Positions 431-24,717 of a DNA stretch of 26,120 nt are shown piece by piece. This stretch comes from Fragilaria crotonensis (Eukaryota; Bacillariophyta; Fragilariophyceae; Fragilariales; Fragilariaceae). How positions within the stretch are numbered: the first letter of the stretch is position 1; the number at the start of each line of letters is the position of its first letter. Made by a program: the position numbers and the translations under genes. The notes under the pieces are model-generated. The model saw only the letters and a list, made by a program, of their open reading frames with translations, did no database searches and had not been told where the DNA came from. The stretch spans positions 1-26,120 of the forward strand of contig JAKSYS010000777.1 in NCBI GenBank assembly GCA_022925895.1, in the 5' to 3' direction.

Positions 431-720
431 ATTACGACAATACAACAATACAACAATACAACGATACGACATTAGCACGGTACAATATTACGACGATACG
501 ACATTAGCACGGTACAACATTACGACGATACGACAATACGACGATACGACATTAGCACGGTACAACATTACGACGATACGACAATACGACGATACGACAT
601 TAGCACGGTACGACGTTAGCACGGTACGACGTTAGCACGGTACGACGTTAGCACGGTACTACATTAGCACGGTACAACGATAACATTCAACGGTACGACA
701 TTAGCACGGTATGACATGAC
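431..720. repeat. Subtelomeric minisatellite (ACGATACGACATTAGCACGG)
   Basis: Directly after the telomere, short words such as TACGACGATACGACAATACGA and ATTAGCACGGTACAACATTA recur. A cleaner ~16-bp unit (TTAGCACGGTACGACG) is repeated several times at about 600-660. No coding potential is seen. Open frames across it are a by-product of the repeat lacking stops. Confidence 0.85.
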
Positions 721-913
721 TTCAACGGTAAAATGTATAAACGATACGGCATCACTACAGTGCGGACACCACATGGCCACGGCATCAGATTCGTTCGACA
801 TCTGATCGGCACATGGTCACGACCACATGTCGTCACAACGTCGTCAACGGTACGATTACGTCGCCATTGAAGCGTCGCAATCGACACGTCGCCATCGACA
901 ACGTTGCAATCAT

Positions 914-999
914 CGTTCGACGTTGAACGACATCGAAGATGAATTGTTGTGTGTGTCGTTCGACGTTGAACGACATCGAAGATGAATTGTTGTGTGTGT
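914..999. repeat. Exact 43-bp tandem duplication with a quasi-palindrome
   Basis: Positions 914-956 and 957-999 are two adjacent copies of the same 43-bp sequence. Each begins with the quasi-palindrome CGTTCGACGTTGAACG and ends in a GT-rich run. The segment between the first minisatellite and this repeat (about 720-913) is rich in ACG/CGTCG words but has no recognisable gene. Confidence 0.85.
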
Positions 1000-1076
1000 A
1001 ATGAAATCTTCACAGTACAAACCTACGTGGAATTTTACGTAGAATATTTCTTGTGTGATAATGGTTGACGCTATCG

Positions 1077-1383
1077 TAGGCACACGTAGACTCTCAGTAT
1101 GGTACATACATCGTAGGCACACGTAGACTCTCAGTATGGTACATACATCGTAGAGACACATAGACTCTCAGTATGGTACATTCATCGTAGAGACACGTAG
1201 ACTCTCGGTATGGTACATACATAAAAGGTTTGCGCTGTCGTAGGCACACGTAGACTCTCGGTATGGTACATACATTGTAGAGACACGTAGACTCTCAGTA
1301 TTGTACAGACATCGTAGAGACACGTAGACTGTCACTATGGTACATACATCGTAGAGACACGTAGTCTCAGTACAGTACATAAA
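1077..1383. repeat. Subtelomeric tandem repeat, ~37-bp unit, about 8-9 copies
   Basis: The unit contains ACACGTAGACTCTCAGTATG followed by GTACATACATCGTAG. About eight or nine copies run in tandem with single-base variants. One interruption near 1220-1240 carries AAAAGGTTTGCGCTGTCG. The minus-strand open frames here are repeat artefacts. Confidence 0.85.
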
Positions 1384-1949
1384 TGGTTGACGTATAGGAA
1401 CGTTCGTGCGAATACCGCACGAATTATGTACGTTGTAGATCGTACGAACGTTCGTGCGAAATATACTTGGGAATGGCTGTACAAGTACTTCCCTGAATGT
1501 ATACGTATGCGACGAAATCTACACATGAAAAGAAGATGTGTTACATTGTTTATACAAACGGGATAGCTAAGTAAATGTTTTCACTGATTCGTCATTCTTC
1601 GAATGTAACATATGAAGTTGTTAAGTAAATTAATGTGTTAACCATTTCTTATCATTTAAGTAATAATTATACTTAAGACGAAATGCTTCTAACTGATTCT
1701 ACACTCTTCCGAATTGATAGATAAAGATGTTGAGTTGGAGTTTCTGTGTCTTGTGGGACTTTATTTTCAGAAACAGTCATCGTTAATTAATTCGTATACA
1801 TAGAACTCCAAACGTGTAAATTGTTGCTTTGTGCGAATTCGACTCCCTATGGCTTTGGTATAATGCAATCGGTGCACAGCAGTTGTGTTGCACTTTGCAA
1901 AACTGATTGACATTGTCAACCGTAAGAGACAGAGCATTCTCATTCTGAT
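1384..1949. other. Non-coding subtelomeric spacer
   Basis: No gene is recognised. GAACGTTCGTGCGAA occurs near 1400 and again near 1445. From about 1500 the sequence becomes AT-rich and contains three close words of the form (C/T)TAAGTAA, near 1566, 1623 and 1658. These resemble a motif of the modules further right. The spacer leads directly into the palindrome cluster before the oxygenase-like gene. Confidence 0.5.
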
Positions 1950-2318
1950 CTACCATTTGGTAGCGTTTGAGTCCCCTGCCTTCTGACTTGTCTACCATTT
2001 GGTAGCGTCAGTTTCGCAGACATTCAAACACCGACAAAGCACTTGTGCCGGCTGAGGACAAAAACATTCCGTCTACCATTTGGTAGCGTTTGAATTTGTA
2101 TCAAGCCATTCGGAGATCAGCGTCTGTTCAGCATTACTTACTCATTCTGGCAACTGCCACAAGCGAAATTGTAGTAGCTGTGGTTCGGTGACACCGTTGG
2201 CCACGCGGAAGCATTGCTCACCATTTGGTGGTATTGTGCTGGTCGTTACGGACACTGATTGGTTTCGAACTCCGTTGAAGATTGAAACCTCGACAGCTTC
2301 CTGACTCACCATTCGGTG
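1950..2318 (+). promoter_or_regulatory. Cluster of CTACCATTTGGTAG quasi-palindromes upstream of the oxygenase-like gene
   Basis: Three identical 14-bp quasi-palindromes (CTACCA-TT-TGGTAG) lie at 1950-1963, 1992-2005 and 2073-2086. Two degenerate versions follow: CACCATTTGGTG near 2220 and CACCATTCGGTG near 2307. They sit 140-500 bp before the first good ATG of the rightward gene. That position suggests binding sites for a dimeric DNA-binding protein. The flanks alternate (CTTGTCTACC...GCGTCAG versus ATTCCGTCTACC...GCGTTTGA), as in the second cluster at 11134-11613. The regulatory role is inferred from spacing and symmetry only. Confidence 0.6.
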
Positions 2319-2459
2319 GTTGGCCTGCTTACAGTGTTTTATCTTGAGACGGCCTGTTTCGAAGTGATAGCACGTCGCGACTTCCATTCGGTTGTCCGTG
2401 CAGCACTGCCAAGAAAGTTTGTAATAAATTTCTACGTGGAAACAAGTCTTTCTTTTCCT

Positions 2460-4691
2460 ATGTCGGAAACACACAAGAAAGGTAGCGCAACAGCGGGCCA
2501 AAAGGGAGCTGTCTGGAATAAGAGGACAAGAAGGGCATCATCGTCAACTCTTGGCTCGCGCGTTCGACAGCGAACATTTCCAAGTGAAACCGCTAGGCGC
2601 CTTATGGCGACCATGGCTTTGGATTGTGGCAACCCTCGTGCGTTGTTGAAGATGACTGGCGGGGTCGTCGGTCATGTTGATTCGCTTATGCCTAGATCTG
2701 ATTTTGTGGAATGCGATTCGGGTGACACCACCTTTCGTGACAACAAGGTTGGCGGTCGTCGCAAGACGGTCGAAGAAGCCGACAAATCCGACGAATCATG
2801 TACAACTGTTGGTGGTGAAGATGGGGATGAGAATGAACAAACCATTGACAAGCAATCGAAGAAGAAGAAGCGGAAAAAGTCCTTATGCTGCTTTTCTATT
2901 CCTTCGAAGCCGCAAATGGCACGTACATTCTCGAAGTGTATTCCAAAGCAGGATGTTGCGGAGTTTGAACGTCTTTTCAACTCCTTCCAAAGCCAAATGT
3001 CATGTCCGCCTGGGTGTGACAATCGTCGCGTCGACGTTAACGCATTGATCATCAAGACTCGGGTTGTCACCATTATTTGGGCACTTCAGCGGCTGTATGG
3101 TGTTGACAACGTTGTTTGCCAGAGATGCGTGGAAATGTGTGGAGAGCGCGTCGACGGTAAAGTTTTGTATAAGCAACACTTCGTAGAGATAGTTGCCATG
3201 GACGCTGTTTTGGCACGAACTCTGAGTCCCCCACGTGCTGTCACTGGAACAGAGACTGTTGACACTCCTGTCAGGTTCCTTGCTCAACGAAAAGAAATGT
3301 TGGATCCGAAATATGATCAATTGTTCCGCGCGTTTGTCGTCGTTGTCCCCGACGGCGCAACGTACTACTGCCACCGCGAGAGGCGGCGTGCCTGCATTGG
3401 TGTTGCCAACGCACTCATTCCGATGGACACGTCGTGGTTGAGAGTGAAACGAAATGGGAATCGCGGCGACCAATTCGCTCTTGGAGGCTACGTCTTGCGA
3501 CTTTGGGATGGGCAACCTTACTGGAAGTTTAAAATTCGCCGTGGAGAATCAAATTTCCAGCTGCGACCAATCCCAAGGAATCCGGCGGAGCGTCTCTCGT
3601 GGAATGTCAAACGGTCCAATTTGAAAGTCTTGTGTGCGTACCAGATGGCTGATGAAGTGGGACCAGCTATGCCCCCAGATTTTGTGGACGGGAAACAGCT
3701 TCAACATTGGCCGTCGTTGAGGCGCGCTTACCGAGCGGCTATCAACAACTCCCCTTCATCGAGGCGCGGTTGTAGGCACTACGCCCAATCACATCTTCAC
3801 CGCCGTATCGATCCGATGAAAACACTGGTCATCGACCCGAAAGAGGGAGATGTGGACCTCCGCATCGCGATTCAGGTTAAGCGTGCAGGTGACGAGAAAA
3901 AATTGGATTCTAGAAACGGACCCAAGCGTGATCGACTTGCACTTTCTCGTGAGTCGGTTGTGCAAATCCGCTACTTGCTGGACTTGGGAAGCGGAGCCCC
4001 GAAATTGGTTTCCGAAGTTTGGGAACACGCGAGCACTGCTACAAAATGGAATCGCCAGTCTGCTCGGCGTGGACTGGGTGATATGGGATCCATGCATCCC
4101 ATTGGAACACGCATTATGAAGGACAACAAGACTCGCGAGAGATACAAGACATCCCGTGGAACTCTCCAACAAGAAGCGTTGCGTAAGGCAGTTGTTGCGT
4201 CCGCTCGGCTGGCGGCTGTAACCATCCCTACTGTCCTGCGGATCATACAGGATGTTGAAGAGGATGGTGACCTTGACCCTCCCGAAGGTGGAATGAATGG
4301 TGATGGAGGGTGTCTGCGTGTGTCGTTCACGATGGATGTGAGCGTTGACCTTGCGAATGCTTCCCATTTCGATGTGAATGATGCGACACAAGGGTTCAGC
4401 ATATGGACCGAAGACGAACCTGGCACAACAAAGGAATGGTACTTCGTCTTGCCGAATGTATACGGGAGGAGGAGCCCCAGTGTGGACGGAAAACCCGGTG
4501 ACATTTATCATGGGGTTGCCATCAAGCTGACGCATGGTGTCCTAATTGGGTGGGATGGTCGCGTCATACGGCACTGTACGTCCGTAATGGATCGTGGAGC
4601 CCAGCAAATCACGTGTACGGTTCGTTTTTTGCGGCGAAGACTTCCGTCGTGGCGTACGGTGCGCGAATGGCTTTTGTGCGCGAAGCGTTGA
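2460..4691 (+). CDS. Nuclear protein with a C-terminal 2OG-Fe(II) oxygenase-like domain, first part
   Basis: The open frame begins before 2460, but the first ATG (MSETHKKG) is at 2460 and is the likely start, giving 743 residues to the stop at 4691. A basic cluster near 2858-2880 (KKKKRKK) looks like a nuclear localisation signal, and Cys pairs (VCQRCVEMCGE) follow. Near the end, H at 4365 and D at 4371 form HFD. A second H at 4533 is followed nine residues later by R at 4557 (HGVLIGWDGR). This HxD...H...R layout is that of iron/2-oxoglutarate oxygenases, the fold that includes AlkB, prolyl hydroxylases and TET/JBP. Similarity appears to leave this frame just after 4570 and continue in the next one, so the last ~35 codons are probably not genuine. 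The substrate is unknown. The palindrome cluster lies immediately upstream. Confidence 0.65.
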   Translation: MSETHKKGSATAGQKGAVWNKRTRRASSSTLGSRVRQRTFPSETARRLMATMALDCGNPRALLKMTGGVVGHVDSLMPRSDFVECDSGDTTFRDNKVGGRRKTVEEADKSDESCTTVGGEDGDENEQTIDKQSKKKKRKKSLCCFSIPSKPQMARTFSKCIPKQDVAEFERLFNSFQSQMSCPPGCDNRRVDVNALIIKTRVVTIIWALQRLYGVDNVVCQRCVEMCGERVDGKVLYKQHFVEIVAMDAVLARTLSPPRAVTGTETVDTPVRFLAQRKEMLDPKYDQLFRAFVVVVPDGATYYCHRERRRACIGVANALIPMDTSWLRVKRNGNRGDQFALGGYVLRLWDGQPYWKFKIRRGESNFQLRPIPRNPAERLSWNVKRSNLKVLCAYQMADEVGPAMPPDFVDGKQLQHWPSLRRAYRAAINNSPSSRRGCRHYAQSHLHRRIDPMKTLVIDPKEGDVDLRIAIQVKRAGDEKKLDSRNGPKRDRLALSRESVVQIRYLLDLGSGAPKLVSEVWEHASTATKWNRQSARRGLGDMGSMHPIGTRIMKDNKTRERYKTSRGTLQQEALRKAVVASARLAAVTIPTVLRIIQDVEEDGDLDPPEGGMNGDGGCLRVSFTMDVSVDLANASHFDVNDATQGFSIWTEDEPGTTKEWYFVLPNVYGRRSPSVDGKPGDIYHGVAIKLTHGVLIGWDGRVIRHCTSVMDRGAQQITCTVRFLRRRLPSWRTVREWLLCAKR

Positions 4692-5959
4692 GGAGAGTCC
4701 ATGCAAAGCAGGACCGAAGACGGGATCGACAAAGAACTGCTACCGGCGAATCTGTGGGAAAGGCTGTGACATGTGTTGGTGCGGGTGGTGAAGGACTTGG
4801 AGATGTTTTCGGTGCCCCGATTCCAAAGAAGAGTAAACAGGATGATATGACGATGGATCGTGGTTCTGCAGATGAGAGGTCAGTTGATGGTGAGGAATCT
4901 TGGAGTGACTACACTTACGCTAGTGGCGGCAGCGATTCCACTGGTGGTAAAGACGTTGGCTTCGTTTTGGAAAGGGATCCATTTGTTGAACGCGTGGAAG
5001 ACGATTTGAAGGAAACGAAGGCTGGTGATGTTGTTGCGGTTGGTAGGGAGTCGGCGTGTCCAGTTGCACAGGATACCGGTCCGTTAACGTGTGGTTTCCC
5101 TCGTGAGGTGTCGGTGCCTGGCAGCTGTGATCGCGCACCAATTGATCTCGTAGAATGTGACGACGAGATCGGCGGTTACCTGGATTGCGTGGCGCAGTGC
5201 CCTGGTGATGTCGCATCACGTGATACGGCTCCGAATTTCGAGGAAAATTCTGATCGACGTAGAAAAATCCGTTCTAGGGAACAACACTCGAGTTCCAGTG
5301 TGGCTGCTGGTTTCATCGGCGATTATGTTGATGGTGAACAACGAACAAGCGGTTGGGAATTGCATCGGAGGTGTCAGAACTTTTTGTCGAGAGAAGTTGA
5401 GGTATGCGGCACTCGAAACGCACGTTGTGAACACGGATGCGGTGGTCGGCAGCCGAATCGGAGCGGTGGCTATGAGGTGCCTGACTTTGGTGGCAGGGGC
5501 CAGGATGACAACCGACGGACTCCTTGCCGCGGTCGTGATCCTGGTTCGTGGCTAGGTGAACGGAAGCGCCCGCGTGGTGGGTTTTGGTGTGACACACGAG
5601 TTCGTGGCGAGCATTGTGACTTGGGACGAATCAATGGTGTGCCTGACTGGGAGCCTCGTGGACGTGGCGGGCACTGGGAACATCATCACGGAGAAGACTG
5701 CGTCGATGATCGTTGGTCTGGCATTCCTCTTGCCGGATCACACCGGCAAGAGGTTCGTGGGAACCACCAGTGGCACCCCCGACGCGATGGACTGGTATTA
5801 CCCCGCGGAGATCATTGTCATGATTTGCCGTCGGGTGGACGGAATCGTGGTGATTCGTCGTATAGGGGGGAAACACGAGGACGTGAATCATGCCTGATGA
5901 GGAATGATGGAAGGACGCCTGACGTAGATCAGCAACCTGCCAAATGTTTTCGGAAGTGA
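4580..5959 (+). CDS. Continuation of the oxygenase-like gene in another frame, with a disordered tail
   Basis: This frame stays open for about 1.4 kb and overlaps the end of the previous one. Its first residues (NHVYGSFFAAKTSVV) look like the final strand and helix of the oxygenase domain. I therefore read it as the same gene after a one-base loss or a splice. A GT...AG span of 29 nt at about 4576-4604 would restore the frame but is shorter than normal diatom introns. The remainder is a basic stretch (residues RRRDRQRT), an acidic Ser/Asp/Glu-rich stretch, and then a long RG/GG-rich tail with His and Cys. This is low complexity, typical of a disordered nucleic-acid-binding tail. No ATG near its start suits independent translation. 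It ends 139 bp from the end of the convergent helicase gene. Confidence 0.5.
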   Translation, partial: VRNGSWSPANHVYGSFFAAKTSVVAYGARMAFVREALRRVHAKQDRRRDRQRTATGESVGKAVTCVGAGGEGLGDVFGAPIPKKSKQDDMTMDRGSADERSVDGEESWSDYTYASGGSDSTGGKDVGFVLERDPFVERVEDDLKETKAGDVVAVGRESACPVAQDTGPLTCGFPREVSVPGSCDRAPIDLVECDDEIGGYLDCVAQCPGDVASRDTAPNFEENSDRRRKIRSREQHSSSSVAAGFIGDYVDGEQRTSGWELHRRCQNFLSREVEVCGTRNARCEHGCGGRQPNRSGGYEVPDFGGRGQDDNRRTPCRGRDPGSWLGERKRPRGGFWCDTRVRGEHCDLGRINGVPDWEPRGRGGHWEHHHGEDCVDDRWSGIPLAGSHRQEVRGNHQWHPRRDGLVLPRGDHCHDLPSGGRNRGDSSYRGETRGRESCLMRNDGRTPDVDQQPAKCFRK

Positions 5960-6098
5960 AAGTGAAAGCGAAACGAAAACGCAGCGATAAGTCGTGAAAA
6001 TCATAAAACGAATTATTGTTACGCTGACTGGAGTTTTAAGACAAGGGAAATCAAGTACATAGAATCAATGAGGACACCAACTATCCATGTATCGGTGT

Positions 6099-7032
6099 TT
6101 ATAATGCTGTCTCCTGGGAGCTCAAGAATTGACAAAAAGATTCCTGGGTGGTGTAAATTCGTTCGATGTATTCCTGGAAGGTTCCCGGCATTTTTGAGCG
6201 GACAAAGTTGTGTGAAAGTAACCGTCGCAATCTTCCCTTCACGGGGCAGCTGTTGATTTCGTGCTTTGTAGCACCTGCTGCACCTTTGAAAACCCAGCAC
6301 TCACAGCATGCTCGCTTGTTCAAGTAATCCTTTTTAAAGGGACAAAGTTTGCGATCGTGTGTACTCACACCACATGCGTAACACATTTTCCATTGGAAAC
6401 ACACGTCTTTGTTCTCTGGCAGAGTCTTACTCCCAGTTCCTCGCAAGAGAGGTATTCCACGACATGTGGTTTTCCGACACACAAGACATGCCAATGACAG
6501 TTGGGTTAATACACGTCGCGAGGCACATTCGTTCGTTCGGGCGTGATGAATGCGGCTTGTGGCGTCTTTTTGGAGACTTGTCAATGGAATGTTGCGACAA
6601 AAGTGGCAGGCACCGCAATTGTGATCCATGGCTCTCCCAAACAAAGCTGACAAGATCTTGATTGCACATCCCCTTTGTCCTTGGGAGGTGTCAGATAACC
6701 AATCGCGAACTCCACTCGATGTCAGAACAGTTTTGAAGTTGGAATGGTCTTGTGAAGAAATAAAGTGCTCGTTCAAGAGCCGAGTGTAGCGGTGCTCGTC
6801 ATCCTTGGTTCGGTGATTGGACAATTTGTCGGGAACGGCAAATAACACTTGGCCGAAGGAGGTTCGCATGTAGCTTCGCAATCTACCGAAGGCTTGTACT
6901 ATCTGCATAGTATCGTACAGGTATCCTACGCAAACCAAATATCTGCAGGATGGATTTTCATTGCCAACCAAGCCCATGGTTGTCGATATGAGGATGTCTA
7001 ACTTTCCATTGCTCCATGCAGTGGCGATTCTT
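6099..7032 (-). CDS. Segment 4: RecQ-type helicase lobe 2 and C-terminal zinc clusters
   Basis: The segment starts in the coding sense at RIATAWSNGKLDIL. It carries motif V (ILISTTMGLVG) and motif VI (QIVQAFGRLR, the arginine-finger region, where RecQ has QE-GRAGR). A CxxCxxC group (C180, C183, C186, numbered from a codon at 7154) sits where RecQ proteins have their zinc-binding module. Further Cys/His groups follow (CLVCRKTTC; CYACGVSTHDRKLCP; CCEC...H...C), possibly two zinc knuckles. The stop at 6099 is 139 bp from the stop of the oxygenase-like gene on the other strand. Confidence 0.7.
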
Positions 7033-7811
7033 CCACTTCTTGGTGAGTAGAATCGGAGGAAACAAACTTGCATTTGTATGGGGTGGTGGTGGAAAGCTGC
7101 TCGAATAAAGTTATGCCATCCTTCTTCTCGGCAACAATAATGTGAGCAGCACAAAGTGGACCTGATAGTCCTCCACTTGAGTCCATCTTTTTCTGTACGA
7201 ATCGGGCGGCGAGGTTTACGTACAGAGATGAAAAGGCCACCTTGATCTTGAACCCTTGCGGAAACTGACCCACAACATGATTCCCATGGATTACTTTAAG
7301 GTCGCTCATGTCATCGGTTTTGGACAAGCCGAGTTTCTTTGTAAATTTAGAAACCGCAAATGTTGGCATTGATCCACTTAACACGACGATGGGAATACCC
7401 AAACTTGGAAGTTTGGAATAAACCTTATATGTGTCGCGGAAACTTGTCTCAGAGAGGATGGTGTGGGCTTCATCTATTACAATTTTGTCGACAACATCCA
7501 CCCAAGACTTGAAAAGCTCCCCAGAGTAATGGAACAAATTGTTTAAGGCATCGAGGTTTAAGAACAGTAGGCTCGGGAGATTTTCTCTTCTCAGTTCTTC
7601 CGGCAAAACACCATCAGAAGTGATGTCTTGCCCCGTGAAAAGATGGATGTTGGCCTTGAGTCCATGCTTCTCGAAGGCTGCCGAACATGTGGCAAACTGA
7701 TATCCGGCCAGGAAGCGATATGGAGAAACATGGATGATGGTCTTGGAACTCTGGTTTGTAAGGAGGCGAGCAATAGTTGGGATTATATAGCATTCCGACT
7801 TCCTCACCTGG
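7030..7811 (-). CDS. Segment 3: RecQ-type helicase lobe 1
   Basis: The segment opens with RKSECYIIPT, which matches the second half of a RecQ Walker A motif (GKS-CY-P). The first half (LLAPG) is in the previous frame, so a base change splits the loop. Motif Ia (TIIHVSPYRFL), motif II (KIVIDEAHTIL, DEAH) and motif III (VVLSGSMP) follow in correct order and spacing. HIIVAEKKDG...FVSSDS corresponds to motif IV in lobe 2. Family knowledge: DEAH-box SF2 helicases of this group are ATP-driven 3'-5' DNA helicases. The frame is lost near 7030, where GTGGAAGAATC appears to lack one G relative to the expected continuation. Confidence 0.72.
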
Positions 7812-9440
7812 AGCTAGTAGAGCAATGCAATGTTGTGGTTTGGTGAAGGTTGTTCCATATCCGAACTCGACCAACTCTTTCTGCTGTAGTGACAAGTAAT
7901 TGTTGTTACTGTTGCTTGCTGATGCAGACATCGGATAGCGAAGACGCATTGCCGCACGCAGGTCAGCCAAGGAAAGTGTTGCCGGGGATCGCGAGGTTTG
8001 ATGTGATGTATCACCTATTGCAAAATGATATGCGCTGAAGTGTGTCTCCTCAGAACCTACTTGCTGGCTGGAGTAGGTCATCGAGTGCGTCAAGGAAGAA
8101 TGACCCATTTTTGAAGCTCCAATGGTGCTTGAGGAAAGGAAGTGATTGGGTTGGCCACCGGTCACAAAGTTGGAGACGCCAGCCCAAAAGTGCCGGACCT
8201 GTGTCATGTTTGGGACGGCGGATAAAGAAAAGAGATCTCGAATGATGTGTGATGGCCTGACATCAGAACGGTTGTTCCTTGTGGGGAAAATCAATCTGGG
8301 AGCATTGGAACAGCTGGGAAAGAAGCTTCCTTTTGTTTGGACAAGAGATCGAAACAATAAGAAGTAACGAGTAATGATGGGGGGTAACTTGCGTTCAATT
8401 TCCTTACAAGTGCGTTGTGACATGGCATTGAAGCCTTTCAAGGAAGAAAGTGTGTAGTAGATTGTATTGTTGGTGAACAAGCAGTGAAACATGGTTGGAT
8501 CACGCAACTCATTCAACCTTGCAGAGCCACCACCAAAACCATGAAATGCCATCTCCAACAGTGCTGTCAAATGGTCAAAATGATCCAGAGGAAAAACAGA
8601 ATCGGGCTTCCAAACGGGACATATATCTGCAAGGAAAAGGTCGCCGGTGTCGTCATCGACAACAACTTTTATGTTGCTCAGAACATCAACTACTGGCTCC
8701 CACCAGCTCCCGACCGCCAAGTTTGATACTGCCACATTCATCAAACACACCGTCTGCGGTACAATTTGTGACCAGTCATCAAACCGAAAAGAAAACTGAT
8801 CCACCGTGATGTTTCCTATTTCATCAATTGTTGTCTTCCTCCTTTTGGGAAGTCGGCGGTGCATTTCACGAATTTGTCGAAGCATCGGAGATAGAAAATG
8901 GAGAACATGCGATTTTCTTACAGCCATGATAAGAGCGGGACCGTGTAATGTGAAAGCGTCTTCCAAAAACGAACATATAACGGAACAAATGGCGGCTTTC
9001 AAAACTGATGCAACCTTTGCAATTACGGAAGAAATGGTGTCACAAGAGATCATTTTGATTTTGGAATCTTTCTTTTCAACGCGGAATCCCGTCATCAAAC
9101 AGAACTCAACTGCCAGGGGATGATGTTGCACGGAAGGTGGGATTTCAAGCATCAAATCCTTCAAGAAGTATGCAATTGAAAATCCGTCTCGGAAGTCAAA
9201 TGATTTGGCGGCAAAGAGACCACGTCGGTATGCAAATGATAAAAGCTTCTTGAGTTCAAAAAGTAAAGTAGATGGATCGTGTTGCATGGTGTAAGTCCAG
9301 CGTTGCGATACGTCTTCAACTTCATTGCCTTCAAATGTTTGCAACGCAGCACGGAGATTACCCGGCACCATCTTTATATTTTCTGAGCATAATTCAGAAG
9401 CCAAACTTCGGCAAGTTGGTGAAGTTTCACCAGAAAGGAC
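7812..9440 (-). CDS. Segment 2: tyrosine-recombinase-like domain
   Basis: The frame is open from 9440 to beyond 7812. I number residues from the non-ATG codon at 9404, because no start is expected inside a gene. Residues 150-290 are a helical region with an R/K patch (HRRLPKRRK, 182-190). Box I of tyrosine recombinases is seen as SARLNEL (R296). A possible catalytic Lys (LKGFN, K323) and a KLPP turn follow. The second-box Arg is R404 in TQVRHF, with Thr where His is usual. GHSSLTH (H435) comes next, with Tyr at 444, exactly nine residues after the His as in phage integrases. All core catalytic residues except the HxxR histidine are therefore present. A Ser/Asn-rich linker then leads to HCIALLAPGE, the start of the helicase ATP-binding loop, where the frame breaks. 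Confidence 0.65.
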
Positions 9441-9567
9441 TCAGTCGCCGGATTTGGCGGTGAATGAATGGAGATAAAGTCAGTTTTGACTTTTCAACAA
9501 ACTGCCTGACACCGCCACAACGTGAAATAAGTGGAGTGAACATATGAGTGTACGTATCATCGTGCTT

Positions 9568-10304
9568 CTCCCTTGTGGAAGGAAAGGTAGAATTGCAGCT
9601 CTTGCCTCATTATAATCAAATTGTTGCTTGATCCTGGATGGTTCGGCACCCTGAAAAAATGATGTGACCTGTGATTGCGATACATATCTACCACATGAGA
9701 GCTTGATAAGATCAGCTTTCTGAAGTCTTGTTCCATTGCATCCCCATGTTTGGCAGTGACGATCAGCATTGGCCTTCCTCAAAAATGAAGGTCCGCATAT
9801 GCAGGAATAGCCAGAATAGGTATTTTTGTCCATTCGGAATTGTTCAATGCTTCCGGATGCCTTTGCTATGTTGAGTTGCATGTTATATCCATGAAGAAGA
9901 GATCGGACGGTTGTGATTCTGCTATCCATGCCATGTTTCTTGAGGTGGTTGCGAATGGATCGCTCATCCAATTTGATTGCTACATGTTTTTCACATTTGC
10001 GACAGCAGAGACCGAATGGGGAGAAGGTGAAGAGTGATTCTGGAATTGACTCGAGAGGGGAGTCAATCAAGTCGGATGTTGTTTTCCGTGTTTCGAATGC
10101 TTCTAATGAAAGCTGTTGTTGTTGGACAATGGATTCGGACACAAACGAAACCTCCGCTTTTCTTTTCAAAGAGGTGGAGCAAAGCATGGTGAAGATGGGA
10201 TGTATATGTGAGGGAGTGAACGAAAATGTGGCGCCACATGGAATTTCAAATGCTTTCGATGTACTGAAGTCTACGGCAGGAACTCCGTTGCTCACGATGC
10301 ACAT
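9568..10304 (-). CDS. Segment 1: N-terminal zinc-finger region
   Basis: About 245 residues from the ATG at 10304. Residues 1-90 are Ser/Thr-rich without a clear fold. A C2H2-like unit follows, with C101 and C104, then H120 and H124 (LCCRKCEK...NHLKKHG). A second Cys/His group spans C168-x-C170 to H183, C184 and C189 (YSCICG...DRHCQTWGC). The layout resembles the N-terminal finger region of OrsD/DUF3505-type proteins, which in other eukaryotes precede RecQ-like helicases (family knowledge, not searched). From about 9567 this frame departs from the family. The true continuation (HDDTYTHMFTPL) lies one frame over for about 130 bp, as shown by the copy at 12076-12614. It likely binds DNA, perhaps the iterons just upstream; that is inference. 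Confidence 0.65.
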
Positions 10305-10445
10305 TCCCTTAAGTAAATATGACTCAGGATGTTCAAAAAATTACTCAGGATGTACAAACCCATATCAGAAATTACTCAGAATGTATCAAGTAAAAACATA
10401 TGTACCTGAAGAATTTTTATGTGTTTTTAGCCCCGCCCCCTTAGG
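10287..10445 (-). repeat. Module 1 of the iteron array, at the 5' end of the recombinase/helicase gene
   Basis: On the minus strand the module begins CCTAAGGGGGCGGGG at 10445, passes an AT-rich stretch and ends its head at TTTTTACTTGATAC. Three iterons of the form TACATCCTGAGTAAT follow at about 10371-10384, 10341-10354 and 10321-10331. The motif TTTACTTAAGG comes next, then a fourth related word (TGCATCGTGAGCAAC, 10287-10301) that includes the first codons of the gene. It may be an element end or recombination site, a promoter/leader, or both. Confidence 0.7.
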
Positions 10446-10758
10446 AATTTCATCACCAACCTTAACCCTATCAATCTTATGAAGGAATTTCAACACCAAC
10501 CTTAACCCTATCAGCCTTATGAAAGAATTTCAAAACCAACCTTAACCCTATCAATCTTGTGAAAATTTCTACACCAACCTTAACCCTATTAGTCTTATGA
10601 AAGAATTTCAACACCAGCTCTAACCCTATCAGTCTTATGAAAGAATTTCAACACGAACCCTAACCCTGTCAGTCTTATGAAACAATACCAACTCTAACCC
10701 TATTAGTCTTATGAAAGGATTTCATTACAAACAACCCTAACCCTATCAGTCTTATTAA
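10446..10758. repeat. Interstitial telomere-like tandem repeat, ~40-bp unit, about 8 copies
   Basis: The unit contains CCTTAACCCTATCA(G/A)TCTTATGAAAGAATTTCAACACCAA, in words of under 20 bases: CCTTAACCCTATCAGT, CTTATGAAAGAA, TTTCAACACCAA. About eight diverged copies run from the border of module 1. Each unit carries TTAACCCTA or CTAACCCTA, a telomere-like word in the same orientation as the real telomere. No gene is present. Confidence 0.8.
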
Positions 10759-11133
10759 AAACATTTATTCTTTTTAAGCGATCATAGTATCGGATCACTT
10801 GAAATTTTGACACTTAGGTAAACAAATTTTAGATGCTTTGTATCCCCTCATTGATTCTTGACGCCAAAATATTCTCACCGTACCATCTGGTTTTACATAC
10901 CATTCTTACTCAAGAACTGGTCTTAATAAAAAATTCAGTCCCTATTCAATTGGCATTCAGGACAATTCACTGCATTCTACATGTTTTTATATACAGTCCT
11001 TAATCATGCTCTGGTCTTATTAAATTTTTAGTCCAATTATTGACTCTTATAATGCGCTGTTGATCAAATTCAGATTTCATTCCTTCTTTGTTCCGGCCAT
11101 AAAATCAAGCATGGTCTCTACAAATCATTCCGT
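10759..11133. other. AT-rich spacer without a recognisable gene
   Basis: The sequence is AT-rich with a weak internal repetition: TGGTCTTAATAAAAAATTCAGT near 10917 resembles TGGTCTTATTAAATTTTTAGT near 11012, about 95 bp apart. No open frame of note is seen. It lies between the telomere-like repeat and the second palindrome cluster. Confidence 0.5.
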
Positions 11134-11613
11134 CTACCATTTGGTAGCGCTTGATTTGTCAAAGACCATGCTTGGAATCAGTTAACAATGATCCGATACT
11201 GGCCACTAGCCCTGCATTCCGACTTGTCTACCATTTGGTAGCGTCAGAGTTGCATGAGCGTGACGACGACGAATCATTCCGTCTACCATTTGGTAGCGTT
11301 TGATTTGTCATCGGAGCTCAGTATTGGTTGACCGACTTGTCTACCATTTGGTAGCGTCGGAGTTGTATGATCCTGCCGAGGACGAATCATTCCGTCTACC
11401 ATTTGGTAGCATTTGATTTGTCATTGGAGCTCGGGATTGGTTGACCGACTTGTCTACCATTTGGTAGTGTTGGAGTTGTACGATCCTGCCGAGGACGAAT
11501 CATTCCGTCTACCATTTGGTAGCGTTTGATTTGTTATTGGTGCTCGGCATTAGTTAACATCGTAACTGCAAGTGGCCCCTTGCACTGCATTTTGAGTTGT
11601 CTACCATATGGTA
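11134..11613. promoter_or_regulatory. Second cluster of CTACCATTTGGTAG quasi-palindromes (8 copies)
   Basis: Copies start at 11134, 11228, 11283, 11341, 11396, 11454, 11509 and 11600. The last has ATAT instead of ATTT (CTACCATATGGTAG). From 11228 on they alternate between two contexts (GACTTGT-x-GCGTCRG and ATTCCGT-x-GCGTTTGATTTG), forming a ~113-bp higher-order unit. The flanks match those of the first cluster at 1950-2086, so the two clusters share ancestry. No intact gene follows on either side. Confidence 0.75.
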
Positions 11614-11910
11614 GCATCACTGTTGCATGTGCGGGAGTGCTGCTTGTAGTCCAAGCACTAGCGGCAGCCAAAGGCAAATCATTCAAGTACTGTAGAAGGT
11701 TTAATGCTAAGACGCATGTCCTTTTTTCATTGCAATGATTGGAAACGTGGACACAATGTCAATAGCAGACAATTGTGATGTTTGTTGCGATATCTTTGTG
11801 TTTGTGATATACTGATGGGGATTGGGAGGTCTGCGCCATATTTCGGTGGCTGATCCGCGCCTGCCATGCTGAGGATGTGATGACGACAAATAGGGACCCC
11901 TACAGCGGAG
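11614..11910. other. Short cargo between palindrome cluster 2 and module 2
   Basis: Open frames of 60-95 codons exist on both strands, but none shows a motif I recognise. I read this as what is left of an element interior after a large deletion. Confidence 0.4.
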
Positions 11911-12075
11911 CTCTGTACCACCAAATGAAAAGGTTATGTATCTAAATGTACCACCCAATGCTGAAAAAGACACACCCGATGCAAGTTTTCCCATATTAGT
12001 ATTCCACCCAATGTATCAAGTAAAAAAATACATCCCCGAAGTTATTTTATATAGAAATTGGACCGCCCCCTTAGG
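11911..12075 (-). repeat. Module 2 of the iteron array
   Basis: The minus-strand head starts CCTAAGGGGGCGG at 12075 and ends TTTTTTTACTTGATAC. Iterons are TACATTGGGTGGAAT (12001-12015), TGCATCGGGTGTGTC (11969-11983) and AGCATTGGGTGGTAC (11948-11962). The fourth word, at 11911-11929 (TTCATTTGGTGGTACAG), is at the start of the cargo. The head directly cuts off the coding sequence of the second zinc-finger copy. Confidence 0.68.
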
Positions 12076-12614
12076 GGTGTAAACATATGTGTGTACGTAT
12101 GATCCTGTTTTTCCCTTTTTGGAAGAATAGGAAAAAGCACAGCTCTTGCCTCACAATAATCAAATTGCTGTTTTGAATTGTGTGGTGATTCGTTGAAAAA
12201 TGAAGTGACTTTAGCATGAGTCACATACCTGCCGCAGCAAAGCTTGATGAGATCAACTTTCTGTAGTTTTGAAGAATCACAACCCACAGTCTTGCAGTGT
12301 CGATTTGCATTTCCAATCTTTACAAAGGATTGACCACACACACAAGAAAATCCAGCATAGGTTTTGCTGTCGCTCCGATACGGATCGATACTTCCCAAAG
12401 CCTTTGCATGAAGTAGTTCCTTTTTATATTCTTCAAGGAGAGAACGGACTGTCGAAAGCCTACTGTCCATACCATGTTTTTTCAGGTGAATTTGAATGGA
12501 TCTCTCGTCTGACTGGTATGATTTTATTGTGATTGCCAAGGGATGAATGGTATGATCGAGTTTAAATTCATGGATAGGAGAGTCTACAGAAGCAATCTGT
12601 AGCTCCCAATGCAA
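12076..12614 (-). pseudogene. Truncated second copy of the zinc-finger N-terminus of the recombinase/helicase gene
   Basis: About 180 residues align with the N-terminal segment of the gene at 10304. Shared blocks are DERSI--HLKKHGMDSR, TVRSLL, SCVCGQSF versus SCICGPSF, NRHCKT-GC, LIKLCCGRYV and KQQFDY-EARA. The first Cys pair (CxxC) of the other copy is missing. The reading frame passes intact through LPKREKQDHTYTHMFTPL and then runs straight into the head of module 2. The gene is thus cut exactly at the CCTAAG border, and the last ten or so codons of the open frame belong to the module. The recombinase and helicase parts are absent. Confidence 0.75.
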
Positions 12615-12757
12615 CTTTCCTTAAGTAATCAGTGGCTCTTGATGCAGAAAAATGGCTCCCGATGCAAATTTGCCTAAGTAAAATGGCTCCTGATGTATCA
12701 AGTAAAAATATACATATTTGAGGAAAATTTATCTAGTTTGAACCCCGCCCCCTTAGG
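12599..12757 (-). repeat. Module 3 of the iteron array, at the 5' end of the truncated copy
   Basis: The minus-strand head starts CCTAAGGGGGCGGGG at 12757 and ends TTTTTACTTGATAC. Iterons ACATCAGGAGCCATT, TGCATCGGGAGCCATT and TGCATCAAGAGCCACT are at about 12682-12696, 12651-12666 and 12631-12646. After ATTACTTAAGG a fourth (TTGCATTGGGAGCTACA) is at 12599-12615. Its position relative to the zinc-finger frame is the same as that of module 1 to its gene. An extra CCTTAGG nearby (about 12766-12772) may be the scar of another head. Confidence 0.68.
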
Positions 12758-12951
12758 GCCTTCTCCTTAGGTGAACAGTTCTTGAATTGGACCAAAATCC
12801 AGCTGTCTCTTTTGGGTTGTGGACATGTCCATAGTTACTAGTGGATGCTTTGTTGTTCTGTGGTTGGCGATGTTGTTGCATGAGATGCATCGTACTTCTG
12901 CAACACCTGGGCGCGCCAATTGAGATGGTACGGGATCTACGGGAACGCGGC
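12758..12951 (-). other. Short cargo between modules 3 and 4, possibly a gene start
   Basis: A minus-strand frame of about 63 codons ends at 12767. It contains VRCISCNNIANHRTTKH, a Cys-x-x-Cys ... His spacing that could be part of a small zinc finger. It is not an obvious copy of the other N-termini. I do not recognise the family. Confidence 0.35.
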
Positions 12952-13121
12952 GTAGCACCCGACGTACACATCTCTAAATAAAAAGGGACACAGGTGCAAC
13001 AGGACATACAAAAAGTGACACCCACCGTACAAATCCTCAGTTAAAAATGTCACCCGCCGTATCAAGTAAAAGTATCTATATCTGTGGATATTTTATCTAT
13101 TTTTGGGCCCGCCCACTTAGG
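12952..13121 (-). repeat. Module 4 of the iteron array
   Basis: The minus-strand head starts CCTAAGTGGGCGGG at 13121 and ends CTTTTACTTGATAC. Iterons GATACGGCGGGTGACA (about 13049-13064) and TGTACGGTGGGTGTCA (13014-13031) are clear. A third, GCACCTGTGTCCC (12985-12998), is diverged. The fourth (TGTACGTCGGGTGCTAC, 12952-12968) is at the cargo start, after TATTTAGAGATG in place of the usual TTACTTAGG. Confidence 0.65.
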
Positions 13122-13440: not shown

Positions 13441-14884
13441 TTTCATGATGTATCTTCACTGAAAAGAGTCCAATATAAAATCTAAAACAAGCATCATATA
13501 GACCTTTAAAAGACAAACAGAGTTGAAGTGAAGACAATGGAGCGAAACGGTCCTGCTAAGTGGGTAAAGATCGATTTGCAGAACAATTTTGGAGTTTCCA
13601 ATCATTGTTGTTATGTGCACTGACGCCTCCTTTCATACTGTATCTTCACCAAAAATAGTCCAATTGAAAATCTGAAACGACGGACGATGATGCAAATTAC
13701 CCGTGAAGATAGTTTGATAGTAGGCCATCGAACGAAACGTACCGTTTAACGATGCAAACAGCAGAACGGCGAACGAATTTCGAGTCTTGAATCCTGACTG
13801 GCATGATGACCATCTCTGCATTTCATTATCTATCTTCACCAAAAATAGTCCAATTGAAAATCTGAAACGACGGACGATGAGGCAAATTACCCGTGAAGAT
13901 AGTTTGATAGTAGGCCATCGAACGAAACGTACCGTTTAACGATGCAAACAGCAGAACGGCGAACGAATTTCGAGTCTTGAATCCTGACTGGCAAGATGAC
14001 CATCTCTGCATTTCATTATCTATCTTCACAAAAATAGTCAATTGAAAATCTGAAACGACGGACGATGAGGCAAATTACCCGTGAAGATAGTTTGATAGTA
14101 GGCCATCGAACGAAACGTACCGTTTAACGATGCAAACAGCAGAACGGCGAACGAATTTCGAGTCTTGAATCCTGACTGGCAAGATGACCATCTCTGCATT
14201 TCATTATCTATCTTCACCAAAAATAGTCCAATTGAAAATCTGAAACGACGGACGATGAGGAAAATTACCCGCAAAGATAGTTTGATAGTAGGCCATCGAA
14301 CGAAACGTATCGGTTAACGATGCAAACAGCAGAACGGCGAACGAATTTCGAGTCTTGAATCCTGACTGGCATGTTGACCATCACAACATTTCATTATCTA
14401 TCTTCACCAAAAATAATCCAATTCAAAATCTGAAGCGACAGACGTTGAGAAACATTACCCTCGAAGTTAGTTTGACATATGGTCATTGAACGAAACGTAC
14501 CGATTAAGGAAGCAATCAACAAAATGGCGGACGAACTTCGAGTTTTCAATCGTGATTGGCATGTGCACCATCTGTGCATTTCGTACTCCATCTTAATCAA
14601 TAATCGTCGAATTTTATATCTGAAACGACGAACATTGAGAAGCGTTAATTGCGAAGAAAGTTGCACGACAGATCTTGAAACGAAACGTACCTCTTGATGA
14701 TCCAAGTAGTAAAATGGCGAACGAACTTCGAGTTTTCATCCGAGACTGGCATGTGCAGCATCTTTGCATTTTGTACTCCATCTTCGCGAATAATCGTCCA
14801 ATTTGATATCTGAAACAGCCAACATTGAGCAGCATTTAAGGTGAAGAAAGTTGCACAGTGGGTCTTGAAACAAAAGAACCTCTT
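13441..14884. repeat. 190-bp satellite array, block 1
   Basis: The landmark TCTTCACCAAAAATAGTCCA (or variants) recurs at about 13461, 13651, 13841, 14030, 14219, 14409, 14599 and 14789, a period of 189-190 bp. The copies between about 13640 and 14390 are nearly identical, while those on both sides are progressively diverged. This is the usual pattern of recent expansion in the middle of an array. Repeated minus-strand frames of 60-70 codons (NEMQRWSSCQSGF...) are by-products of the repeat. The unit length is close to one nucleosome. Confidence 0.88.
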
Positions 14885-15168
14885 GAGGATGCAAACGAAG
14901 GATGTGAAAGCAGCACTGATATCAGGAGTGTGGAGTGCACAGCTCCAATTTTGGGCTGCAAAAACATTCGGACAATACCATGTTACTACGTGTGATATTG
15001 TCTCCGTGTTGCGAGTGATTCTCCTCCGGACGTAGTAATTCCTAAGTAAAAAATCCCTCCGGACGTCAAAAATCCCCCTCCGGACGTAAAATCACCACTC
15101 CGGACGTATCAAGTAAAAGCATCTATACTTGAGGATTTTTTATCCAGTTCGAATCCCTTTTCCTTAGG
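14885..15168 (-). mobile_element. 284-bp unit carrying module 5, copy A
   Basis: This unit lies inside the satellite and is repeated at 16103-16386 with about two base differences. On the minus strand it begins with the head CCTAAGGAAAAGGGATTC at 15168. It has three iterons with the core ACGTCCGGAG (15096-15108, 15076-15088, 15055-15066), then TTACTTAGG. A fourth (TACGTCCGGAGGAGAA) lies at 15019-15034, followed by ~134 bp of cargo without a recognisable gene. It looks like a short non-autonomous member of the module family. No clear target-site duplication is visible, because both flanks are satellite. Confidence 0.65.
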
Positions 15169-16102: not shown

Positions 16103-16386
16103 GAGGATGCAAACGAAGGATGTGAAAGCAGCACTGATATCAGGAGTGTGGAGTGCACAGCTCCAATTTTGGGCTGCAAAAACATTCGGACAATACCATG
16201 TTACTACGTGTGATATTGTCTCCGTGTTGCGAGTGATTCTCCTCCGGACGTAGTAATTCCTAAGTAAAAAATCCCTCCGGACGTCAAAAACCCCCCTCCG
16301 GACGTAAAATCACCACTCCGGACGTATCAAGTAAAAGCATCTATACTTGAGGATTTTTTATCCAGTTTGAATCCCTTTTCCTTAGG
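16103..16386 (-). mobile_element. 284-bp unit carrying module 6, copy B
   Basis: Almost identical to the unit at 14885-15168. Its iterons are at about 16314-16326, 16294-16306, 16273-16284 and 16237-16252. The head begins CCTAAGGAAAAGGGATTC at 16386 and marks the inner edge of both the satellite and the module array. To the right lies the broken transposase gene. Confidence 0.65.
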
Positions 16387-16563: not shown

Positions 16564-18346
16564 TGCTTCTGGGGTCTGGATATTGGAATGGCTTCATGAG
16601 AAGGCATCGACACGTAATTCGAAGCAAACGCTCTGTTACATTCGAAGCTAAACGCACCGAATGGTGCACTTACGAAAATTTCTCCGACATGTATGCCCAC
16701 ATTTATGAAGCGATGGTCGAGCACGGCATTGCATCAAAATGTGACAGGAAGGTGAAGCTGATGACGCGTTCGGACTGCCGACGCAATATCTCATGCTAAG
16801 ACCTGACAAACTAATCTTTGTCGATGAGGTGGGTTCAAATACCTGTACAACAAAGGATGTGCACGTTGGTGGTGAGAAATTCTTGTGCAAAGCAGACCAA
16901 AGACCACAAATAAAGGCGGCGACCAAAGACTCACATTTTACAGTGCTAGGGTTTACGGCGGCATCAGGTGAACCCGTCATGTGTGCAATAATATTTTCTG
17001 CGAAGGAAATGTGCCGAAGCTGGGTGTTAGGACTCAATGCATCTGCTCCATGGGTTGGTGACAATAAGGACTTACGAGCAAACACAGGTGGTATGGACAC
17101 ACGACACCCGCAAGGATCAGTGTGTCACTTCAACGGAAAGACAATTCCCACTTTCTGCTGCTGCTCCGAGAACGGAAGCATCACATCAGAGCTTCTGGTG
17201 GAAATGCTTCGTGCCGTCGACAACGCTGGCGCTTTTGATCGATCTGATGGCATTCATCCATTTCTTCTTGTCGACGGTCATGGCAGTCGTTTTGAATTGC
17301 CATTCTTGAGGTATGTGAACGACGCCGAGGGCACTGGTAGAAAATGGAATGCATGCGTGGGTGTGCCGTATGGCACAAGTTACTGACAGGTGGGAGACAG
17401 CAGCGAACAGAATGGCTGCTTTAAAATGGCGCTTACCAAGTACAAACGTGATCTGCTGAGAGCCAAAGAGTTAGCAGGACTTGAATTTGGAATAAACAAA
17501 GAGGACGTCACTTACCTTGTTTCTCAGGCATGGACGCATTCATTTGCTCGTGTTGCACAGAACAAATCAGCCATTGCAGATCGTGGATGGAATCCTCTCA
17601 ATTACAATTGCTTGCTTCACCCTGAAATTGTTGCGACAAGGTATAACAGAGAACAAGGACTTGGTGGTGGCGGTGGCAGCAACAGTTGTAGCAATGAAGG
17701 AGGCAGCAGTGACGATGACGGTCGGGAAGATGTCATGATACCGGCAGAAGGATTGCAGCTTGTGGACCAAATGAACTTATCGCAAGGGGTATCTGGATCA
17801 CTGATCAACACACTTCTTGAGAAAAGAAATCGCGATGATGCCAGGAATGGCATTAATTTTGAAGAAATCCGGCTCAAGAGAATTGAAACGTCGAAACAAA
17901 TTGTTGTCGATAAGAAAAAGAGATATACTTCTGGACTTCATGTGGCGTGTCAGAGATTCATGGTAGGTCCAGAGGTTCTCGACGACTTGGAAGAGCGAGA
18001 GCTGATGCAGGCAGCTATCATTTCTGGGCGTCAAGAGAAGAAGTTGATGGAGTTTTGATCTCTGAAGACGAAGGTTGATGCTTTAAAAGCATTGAACAAG
18101 AGTCCGAGTGATATGAATGTTAGTCAACTGAAACTCATGGTGACATGGTACAAACTTGCCGGCGATTTACCAGTTCCAACAACAAGAACAGCGCTCCTTG
18201 AACGAATGCGTGCCACCATTGGACGAGAAGATCCAAGGGAGCCTGCGATACCCACTCTTGTTCAAATGCCGCCACGGCCTGTGGCAGTTGCAGTGGCAGT
18301 GACAGCAGCGGCAACTGCCATGGTACAAGACGGACTTGCCGAATGA
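16563..18346 (+). pseudogene. DDE-superfamily transposase, broken
   Basis: Three stretches read as one protein. The first (from 16563) has GYWNGFMRRH...TYENFSDMY...EHGIA, a typical N-terminal part of pogo-like DDE proteins. The frame then shifts between about 16740 and 16780. The second stretch (LPTQYLMLRPDKLIFVDEVGSNT) holds the first catalytic Asp (VDEVG) and the second (LLVDGHGSRF). An in-frame TGA at 17384-17386 follows GTSY, where relatives would have Trp. Right after it comes the third acidic residue in VGDSSEQNG. The region after 17390 gives WTHSFARVAQNKSAIADRGW, a Gly/Ser-rich linker, another in-frame TGA at 18056-18058, and a small helical C-terminus (LKLMVTWYKLAGDLPVP) that recalls a SAP-like motif. 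The transposase cuts and pastes DNA in the nucleus; this copy cannot be active as written. Confidence 0.75.
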
Positions 18347-24390: not shown

Positions 24391-24717
24391 TGTCGCAGCG
24401 CAGCTGCACCACGGTAACTATTAATCAAGAGTCCAAGGAAGTTAGAGCCCCTGCTAGGCCGTAAGCCAGATGATTCTATTCAATACTGTAGATTCCCCGT
24501 GGTGTCACCTGATGCTGAGGTACATATTTAGCTCTTTCTGCAGGGAGGGCTTCCTAATGGAACCTTTCATCCCGCCGGTTGATCCTCCAGGCCACATCTT
24601 CATCATTCGAAATCGATGCGACGGCAACAGCGTTATCGGTGATAAACGAGCGGGTGCAAAAGTACTCCTTAGCAAAGGTGGAAGCCAGATGACGCGTTCC
24701 AGCATAAGCAAATCAAT
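24391..24717. other. Convergent 3' intergenic region
   Basis: This lies between the stop codons of the lumen protein (plus) and the transporter (minus). The stretch contains only short frames and presumably holds both 3' ends. No clear polyadenylation signal was picked out. Confidence 0.4.

Follow-up and report, generated by a model that had tools for sequence, protein, structure and literature searches.

What does a gene that combines recombinase-like motifs with a helicase do at the end of a diatom chromosome? The question is raised by the left end of a contig in the Fragilaria crotonensis genome assembly (62 Mb, 881 contigs). This end begins with a telomere array and was analyzed as a window of 26,120 bp (GenBank contig JAKSYS010000777.1, referred to as C754; other contigs, loci and proteins carry similar handles). 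On its minus strand lies a gene, here called the YR-RecQ gene, that encodes zinc-finger-like motifs, a domain resembling tyrosine recombinases (YRs) and a RecQ-like helicase. We put the probability at roughly 55% that this protein drives a mobile element directed to telomeres, one by which chromosome ends are moved or replaced.

In the window, the gene is divided among four frames (Table 1). In the copy on contig C490, which is 99.7% identical over 5205-10445, all parts lie in a single open frame of 1324 residues (P0057), with the first Met only at residue 46. The 4365 aligned columns of 6090-10445 contain 1 mismatch and 9 gaps between the two copies. The frameshifts of the window gene are probably sequence errors, because the assembly was made with Canu from Nanopore R9.4.1 reads and polished with Illumina reads (PMC9476933). 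Both helicase domains of P0057 pass the curated Pfam cut-off (PF00270 with 50.9 bits; PF00271 with 26.5 bits, E 8.4e-6). RQC and HRDC domains were not found among 25 of the 27 Pfam families listed for 24 family members. Purifying selection was indicated by four copies from the same genome, with a ratio of nonsynonymous to synonymous substitution (dN/dS) of 0.10-0.14 in the pairs that were not saturated (4/6 for the YR part and 3/6 for the helicase part). Among the matches listed, all protein homologues with an organism label were from Fragilaria. A second clade with the same architecture comprises 19 proteins (P0079-P0097) besides P0049, and the 14 that were aligned are 28 to 31% identical to P0057.

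The motifs of the putative recombinase domain were found in the open reading frame (ORF) at 7614-9440, comprising R308 (in SARLNEL), K335 (in LKGFN), R416 (in TQVRHF), H447 (in GHSSLTH) and Y456, which follows the His by nine residues. An earlier, sequence-only reading of this DNA had reported a box I Arg, a Lys, a box II Arg, a GH-His and a Tyr in one minus-strand frame, and all are present there; its residues were correct, but its numbering (R296, R404, H435 and Y444) was 12 too low for R308, R416, H447 and Y456. It had also made its case depend on the conservation of these residues, which proved identical in 26/26 aligned proteins, and had placed the recombinase-like and RecQ-like parts in one protein, as the single C490 frame confirms, the parts lying in different frames in the window.

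The motifs follow one another as in Escherichia coli XerD, which also has the R-x-x-E-L of box I and the Tyr at His+9. Retention was scored in a set of 86 homologous sequences (56 proteins and 30 loci from the same genome, the window locus included), many of them fragments or broken copies. In the rows that aligned at each position, R308 was retained in 61/64, K335 in 60/62, R416 in 48/52, H447 in 45/46 and Y456 in 43/46. In alignment A3, made of 26 mostly full-length proteins picked from 78, R517, E520, K544, R625, H656 and Y665 (P0057 numbering) were invariant (26/26). Alignment A4 consisted of 24 proteins picked from 97 and reached down to 28% identity; among rows with a letter, R517, E520, K544 and R625 were found in 24/24, H656 in 23/23 and Y665 in 22/23, the other being Cys.

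When 24 family members were compared with 17 bacterial and phage YRs by unconstrained hhalign, the domain aligned co-linearly, and R517, E520, R625, H656 and Y665 were paired with XerD R148, E151, R247, H270 and Y279, so that both arginines, the His and the Tyr fall on catalytic residues of that enzyme. K544 was left unpaired in a gap, and it is by order and spacing that it is equated with the XerD lysine. The wider region scored 29.2, compared with a mean of 14.9 for column shuffles (standard deviation 2.8, maximum 27.9); 0/200 shuffles reached the score, at most 2 of 4 catalytic residues were paired in them, and the reversed alignment scored 15.8. Against the same 17-member profile, the hhalign P value was 0.0056-0.028 for the YR-like part and 0.54 for the helicase part. 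As a yardstick, a DIRS-like YR that is weakly recognized by Pfam gave a P value of 4e-4 against this profile (0.0019 in the reverse direction) and 0.086 against XerD relatives alone. The signal came with the diverse 17-member profile and the wider A4; earlier comparisons by hhalign with XerD relatives, lambda Int and the DIRS-like YR had returned nothing. A sequence search of the PDB gave one chance match for the single ORF, and helicases, RecQ and one zinc finger for A3; neither A3 nor A4 had relatives in IMG/VR. In the genome itself, PF00589 had 62 matches, none on YR-RecQ genes, and the top ones were the DIRS-like YR family. The similarity to YRs is thus at the level of motifs, and the domain, which is outside the named families, is called YR-like here. 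Judged from its sequence, it very probably works like a YR.

The gene lies next to an exact boundary. On its 5' side, the sequences analyzed contain one end that is met by 24 distinct flanks and consists of CCTAAGG and ∼55 bp ending in TTTTACTTGATA. Inside this terminus, most copies have 3 to 4 repeats of ∼11 bp, which are alike within a subfamily and different between subfamilies. In the genome, 27 contigs carry the terminus pattern, 59 times in all. Where a contig has at least two termini (14 contigs), the orientation within it is uniform, in 46/46 termini overall. Were all events independent, the chance of this would be 2^-32; it is in truth less extreme because some contigs share a stack (C588/C783 and C754/C490). 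In the window alone, six successive termini all face the telomere. The gene has 83 matches in this genome; of the best 30, 25/30 faced the nearer contig end, and they did so throughout on 18/23 contigs (p 0.011). A telomere array opens four contigs, and on three of them (C490, C592 and C754, with C23 as the exception) there is a copy of the gene that faces the telomere. This sequence evidence places the gene in a mobile, subtelomeric element whose terminus is exact.

How the terminus came to meet its flanks was examined at the joins. These were gathered by requiring CCTAAG, so the element side of the joins is fixed by the search and the target side is not, apart from the omission of targets that themselves read CCTAAG. 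For 16/37 joins, the target before joining was known from a homologue of ≥90% identity, and these represent 14 distinct targets. The closest empty target had CC at the join in 13/14 cases, the full triplet being CCT in 10, CCG in 2, CCA in 1 and GCT in 1. The base preceding the join (n = 37) was C in 26, T in 7, A in 3 and G in 1. A CCT at both the element end and the target is reminiscent of the short core, identical on both sides, at which YRs insert, as would befit an ordinary two-ended YR DNA transposon with a circular or linear intermediate, inserting at CCT near telomeres in one orientation. Its stacks and lost remainders would then come from later erosion of the subtelomere and from ectopic recombination, and subtelomeres do undergo frequent recombination. 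The fate of the target sequence distal to the join bears directly on this explanation. Among the 16 joins, 13 had no match of ≥90% longer than 26 bp to the distal continuation of the target, with distal sequence short or incomplete for most contigs; two (C783 4892 and C389 21042) had a nearby repeat as target, so that the search was uninformative. At the remaining one (C551 33308), the continuation was found further distal at 98.7%, which is in the transposon's favor, though it lies ∼2.2 kb inside, at the position where the element's own gene is expected. For three joins on contigs that reach the telomere (C754 12075, C754 10445 and C490 10243), there was no close copy of the continuation on the distal side; the best match, 70% for one of them, is in our reading the element's own gene. 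As no second end with target continuation was seen in the distal sequence available for the 16 joins, we consider an ordinary YR transposon unlikely, while granting it a real chance. Nested insertion was also considered as the origin of the stacks and is disfavored by the missing target continuations.

The same CCT could be taken as microhomology (10/14 distinct targets) used by host repair, in which broken ends would invade the element terminus and copy out to the telomere by break-induced replication, the YR-RecQ protein being a passenger or a mere nicker. On contig C389 (L040 ∼4170-4546), ∼125 bp of an older gene are doubled just before the 21042 join, as if a copying enzyme had jumped back, and this duplicated flank hints at template switching, which host repair could leave behind. 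Microhomology alone should use many points of the element, whereas the joins found use one, although the search required CCTAAG and others may have been missed. Moreover, different subfamilies are joined at the same target nucleotide in C389 and C588, and different subfamilies follow the same stubs in C588 and C783, where a swap within the shared first 14 nt is also possible. Host repair as the maker of the joins appears quite unlikely. A related regularity was seen at close CCTAAGG repeats in the genome, of which 7/10 read CCTAAGGAGAAGGC-CCTAAGG, as if new termini had been joined 14 nt inside older ones. Two pairs among the seven (in C588 and C783) share descent, and a mirror-image control pattern was commoner (172), so the argument lies in the fixed spacing and not in the number.

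Whole chromosome ends were also found to be shared. C754 and C490 each open with a telomere array. Between 433 and 10445 they have 99.6% identity, and beyond the exact terminus they are unrelated; the part distal to 6090-10445 differs by 4 mismatches and 9 gaps in 5665 columns. C588 and C783 have 2.6 kb in common at 97%, again with the exact terminus as the proximal limit. An ordinary YR transposon leaves unexplained why C754 and C490 share sequence to near the telomere and part at the terminus itself. Misjoining of repeats at their ends would be an artefactual source of such sharing, and it might be suspected in a Nanopore draft of a diploid genome with redundancy removal (PMC9476933) whose two arms differ by only 5 mismatches. 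The read N50 of 17.8 kb exceeds the 10.4-kb arm (PMC9476933), and neither 59 termini nor CC at 13/14 closest empty targets would be expected from misjoining, which makes an assembly artefact extremely unlikely.

The reading that we favor, an element that moves or replaces chromosome ends, would operate as follows. The zinc fingers would bind the subterminal repeats, and the tyrosine of the YR-like domain would cut beside CCT on both element and target and transfer one strand. The RecQ part would then unwind the donor, so that the stretch from terminus to telomere might be moved or copied onto the target arm, which would lose its own end. Stacks would grow over repeated rounds, with the proximal terminus of each older element preserved and its distal part lost. 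Tentatively, and at odds short of even, this may represent a new class of mobile element in which the moving unit is the chromosome end. A cut at the single CCTAAGG terminus and at a CCT in the target arm would be followed by joining and by helicase-driven transfer or copying out to the telomere, and arms would repeatedly lose and regain their ends by a site-specific, Helitron-like, one-ended reaction.

Several observations weigh against this reading, and a first group concerns the domain. PF00589 and other integrase families were absent from the Pfam families listed for 8 proteins at E up to 5 and from 25 of the 27 families listed for 24 proteins at E up to 10. PHROGs (24 proteins, E up to 10) returned 18 families, most of them unnamed and none an integrase. 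The histidine of HxxR is missing in 26/26 proteins, position 622 being T in 16, R in 7, and I, V and L in 1 each. With the narrow single-domain region, 1/200 shuffles was at the score, and a profile of XerD relatives only gave weaker P values (0.24 in the first run and 0.03 later for the YR part; 0.16 for the wider part). hhalign detected no similarity to the genome's own DIRS-like YR (P 0.81), nor was there a signal from a home-made profile aligner (z -0.1). The global mode does not discriminate, since in it the helicase control (P 0.036) came near the YR part (0.017). The missing Pfam integrase match would suit a host family of telomere-linked helicases whose YR-like residues are coincidental, as would the subtelomeric RecQ genes of a number of fungi (PMC7473861). 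Five invariant residues, the co-linear profile alignment with 0/200 shuffles and the exact mobile terminus adjoining the gene leave coincidence very unlikely.

The second group concerns the reaction. Farther homologues of some targets lack CC, with one or both of the first bases changed. Five of the 30 gene copies face away from the nearer contig end; on four of the five contigs concerned (C121, C389, C572 and C588), other copies lie nearer the end that the gene faces. In the 16 joins with a known target, a second element end was not seen, and the identity of C754 and C490 could have come from two insertions followed by an ordinary ectopic exchange of ends. Among the broader proposals of the sequence-only reading, the integrase profile comparison had a divided outcome, with co-linear hhalign alignment to 17 YRs at 0/200 shuffles and no PF00589 match. 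Its self-mobilizing telomere-linked element holds as a mobile subtelomeric element with an exact terminus, while self-mobilization is something that we infer. Membership in Cryptons or Starships is unsupported because no named YR family was matched: PF00589 is absent, and the HxxR His is replaced by T, R, L, I or V.

The stack of which the gene forms the outermost element (element A) is laid out in Table 1, with remnants B to F behind it. Remnant B contains a minisatellite of TTAACCCTA units and eight CTACC-ATTT-GGTAG palindromes, one of them mismatched. With their GT..GC flanks, exact palindromes were found only in C754, C490 and C411; the palindromes had been considered as recombination sites of the whole family and were rejected, since the flanked form is confined to these three contigs. 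ORF1 is convergent with the YR-RecQ gene and had no Pfam match up to E 1. It has at least 61 matches, itself included (60/415 candidates were scored), and is perhaps a passenger of the element because it is a member of a dispersed family; among the matches listed, only five contigs with ORF1-family sequences also had YR-RecQ matches (C754, C490, C776, C578 and C121). An HxD...H-like spacing gives the impression of a possible Fe(II) oxygenase. A 190-bp unit is repeated in tandem in about 5 copies (13641-14896), and similar sequence occurs on C776 and C783. Two frames at 16745-18058 give the impression of a broken DDE-type transposase, with no Pfam match at E up to 1. The first apparently ordinary host genes, judging by translation, lie ∼23 kb from the telomere (23080-25953), and their frames suggest an organelle-targeting-like start and a multi-span membrane protein.

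Table 1. Positions of the features of the 26,120-bp window
Feature	Position	Strand	Evidence or remarks
Telomere array CCCTAA/CCCCTAA	1..427	+	Same array type starts C490, C592 and C23
Subtelomeric satellites	433..1390	.	Common to C490; part (448-1057) also at right end of C578
Three imperfect palindromes CTACC-ATTT-GGTAG, distal arm of element A	1950..2086	.	Sequence
ORF1, 801 + 485 codons in two overlapping frames, convergent with YR-RecQ gene	2286..5959	+	Dispersed family
YR-RecQ gene of element A, four frames	6099..10340	-	Open in C490 copy (P0057, 1324 residues)
Helicase C-terminal part, QAFGRLR and Cys-rich C-terminus	6099..7295	-	PF00271 E 0.025 (window piece)
Helicase DEAD/DEAH part	6998..7813	-	Pfam PF00270 E 2.8e-11
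Frame with recombinase motifs	7614-9440	-	ORF, 608 codons
YR-like catalytic domain	7968..8630	-	P0057 residues 480-700
Predicted catalytic codons	R308 8517-8519; K335 8436-8438; R416 8193-8195; H447 8100-8102; Y456 8073-8075	-	
N-terminal part, zinc-finger-like C/H motifs	9480..10340	-	Translation; Pfam zinc-finger matches weak, in few relatives
Four subterminal repeats TACATTCTGAG, TACATCCTGAG, AACATCCTGAG, TGCATCGTGAG	10291..10385 (10385-10375, 10354-10344, 10333-10323, 10301-10291)	-	
Element A 5' terminus, 62 bp, CCTAAGG...TTTTACTTGATA	10384..10445	-	C754/C490 homology ends at 10445
Remnant of element B, cut where A joins	10446..12075	-	Matches C411 10514-12083 at 88-90% identity over most of its length
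Parts of element B	5' terminus 12014-12075; palindromes 11134-11614; minisatellite 10445-10760	-	
Remnant of element C, cut where B joins	12076..12757	-	99.5% identical in two pieces to C783 (L038)
Parts of element C	5' terminus 12696-12757; piece of the gene's N-terminal region within 12042-12620	-	
Stub CCTAAGGAGAAGGC of 14 nt, looking like the terminus of a yet older element	12758..12771	-	
Remnant D 5' terminus, CCTAAGT variant	13060..13121	-	Outside the 59 termini
Remnant E 5' terminus, then four ACGTCCGGAG repeats	15107..15168	-	Terminus pattern
Remnant F 5' terminus, subfamily of E	16325..16386	-	Terminus pattern

Among known systems, the closest in genomic setting are the telomere-linked helicases of fungi. 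For the subtelomeric RecQ genes of Agaricus and other fungi, the available part of the published account reports that no second domain was found (PMC7473861). Like them, the diatom gene encodes a RecQ-like helicase of superfamily 2 (SF2) and is multicopy, subtelomeric and accompanied by truncated copies; unlike them, as they are described in that part, it has a YR-like domain and zinc-finger-like motifs preceding the helicase and adjoins a defined mobile terminus. With Cryptons and DIRS elements, it shares a YR chemistry, expected from the sequence, and a short core common to element and target, but here the YR-like domain is fused to RecQ, one end is defined and the copies face chromosome ends. 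In the available main text of a Crypton survey, the word helicase has 0 occurrences (PMC3212892). A DIRS-like family (L001:700-2133 and relatives) has 117 matches in the F. crotonensis genome and gives the impression of a YR, with HSIR, GRW and Y, that is preceded by an RNase H end. Transposons with a helicase are found in KolobokH, with a DDD/E transposase and a RecQ helicase downstream (PMC9587614), and in the AcademH DNA transposons, which encode a helicase (PMC10799480). The present element resembles both in having a helicase and differs from KolobokH and its DDD/E enzyme in that its recombinase part is YR-like; a DDE domain is not among the Pfam families listed for family members.

HeT-A and the Terminons likewise form head-to-tail stacks, truncated on one side, at chromosome ends, and the terminus described here starts with CCTAA. 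Those elements use reverse transcriptase, whereas none was found here, either as a Pfam match in the 9 window ORFs or among 25 of the 27 families listed for 24 members. Helitrons encode a HUH Rep together with a PIF1-type helicase and, in one-ended transposition, have one precise and one loose end. The element has in common with them a tyrosine strand-transferase joined to a helicase in one protein and one precise end; it differs in having a YR-like domain and a RecQ-type helicase, and HUH Rep and PIF1-type helicase are not among the Pfam families listed. Terminons are described as retroelements that stack at telomeres and whose ends carry a reverse-complement telomere stretch, and the RepHel of Helitrons is also treated (PMC6431247).

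In the accessible, partly available literature, a search that took in neither subscription papers nor most preprints found no YR-RecQ fusion and no tyrosine recombinase paired with a telomere-linked helicase. Going by the available descriptions, a YR-like enzyme, a RecQ helicase, a single exact end and uniform polarity toward chromosome ends occur together in none of the systems compared. If the reading put forward here is true, a further chemistry, that of a tyrosine recombinase with its own helicase, would be added to mobile-element life on chromosome ends. The stacks of joins would record the turnover of diatom chromosome ends, and an enzyme capable of CCT-directed, one-ended joining would be worth study in itself. 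The element also suggests a testable role for subtelomeric RecQ genes such as those known in fungi. Should the fungal telomere-linked helicases hide the same domain, the diatom element would be the first clear member of a wider kind.

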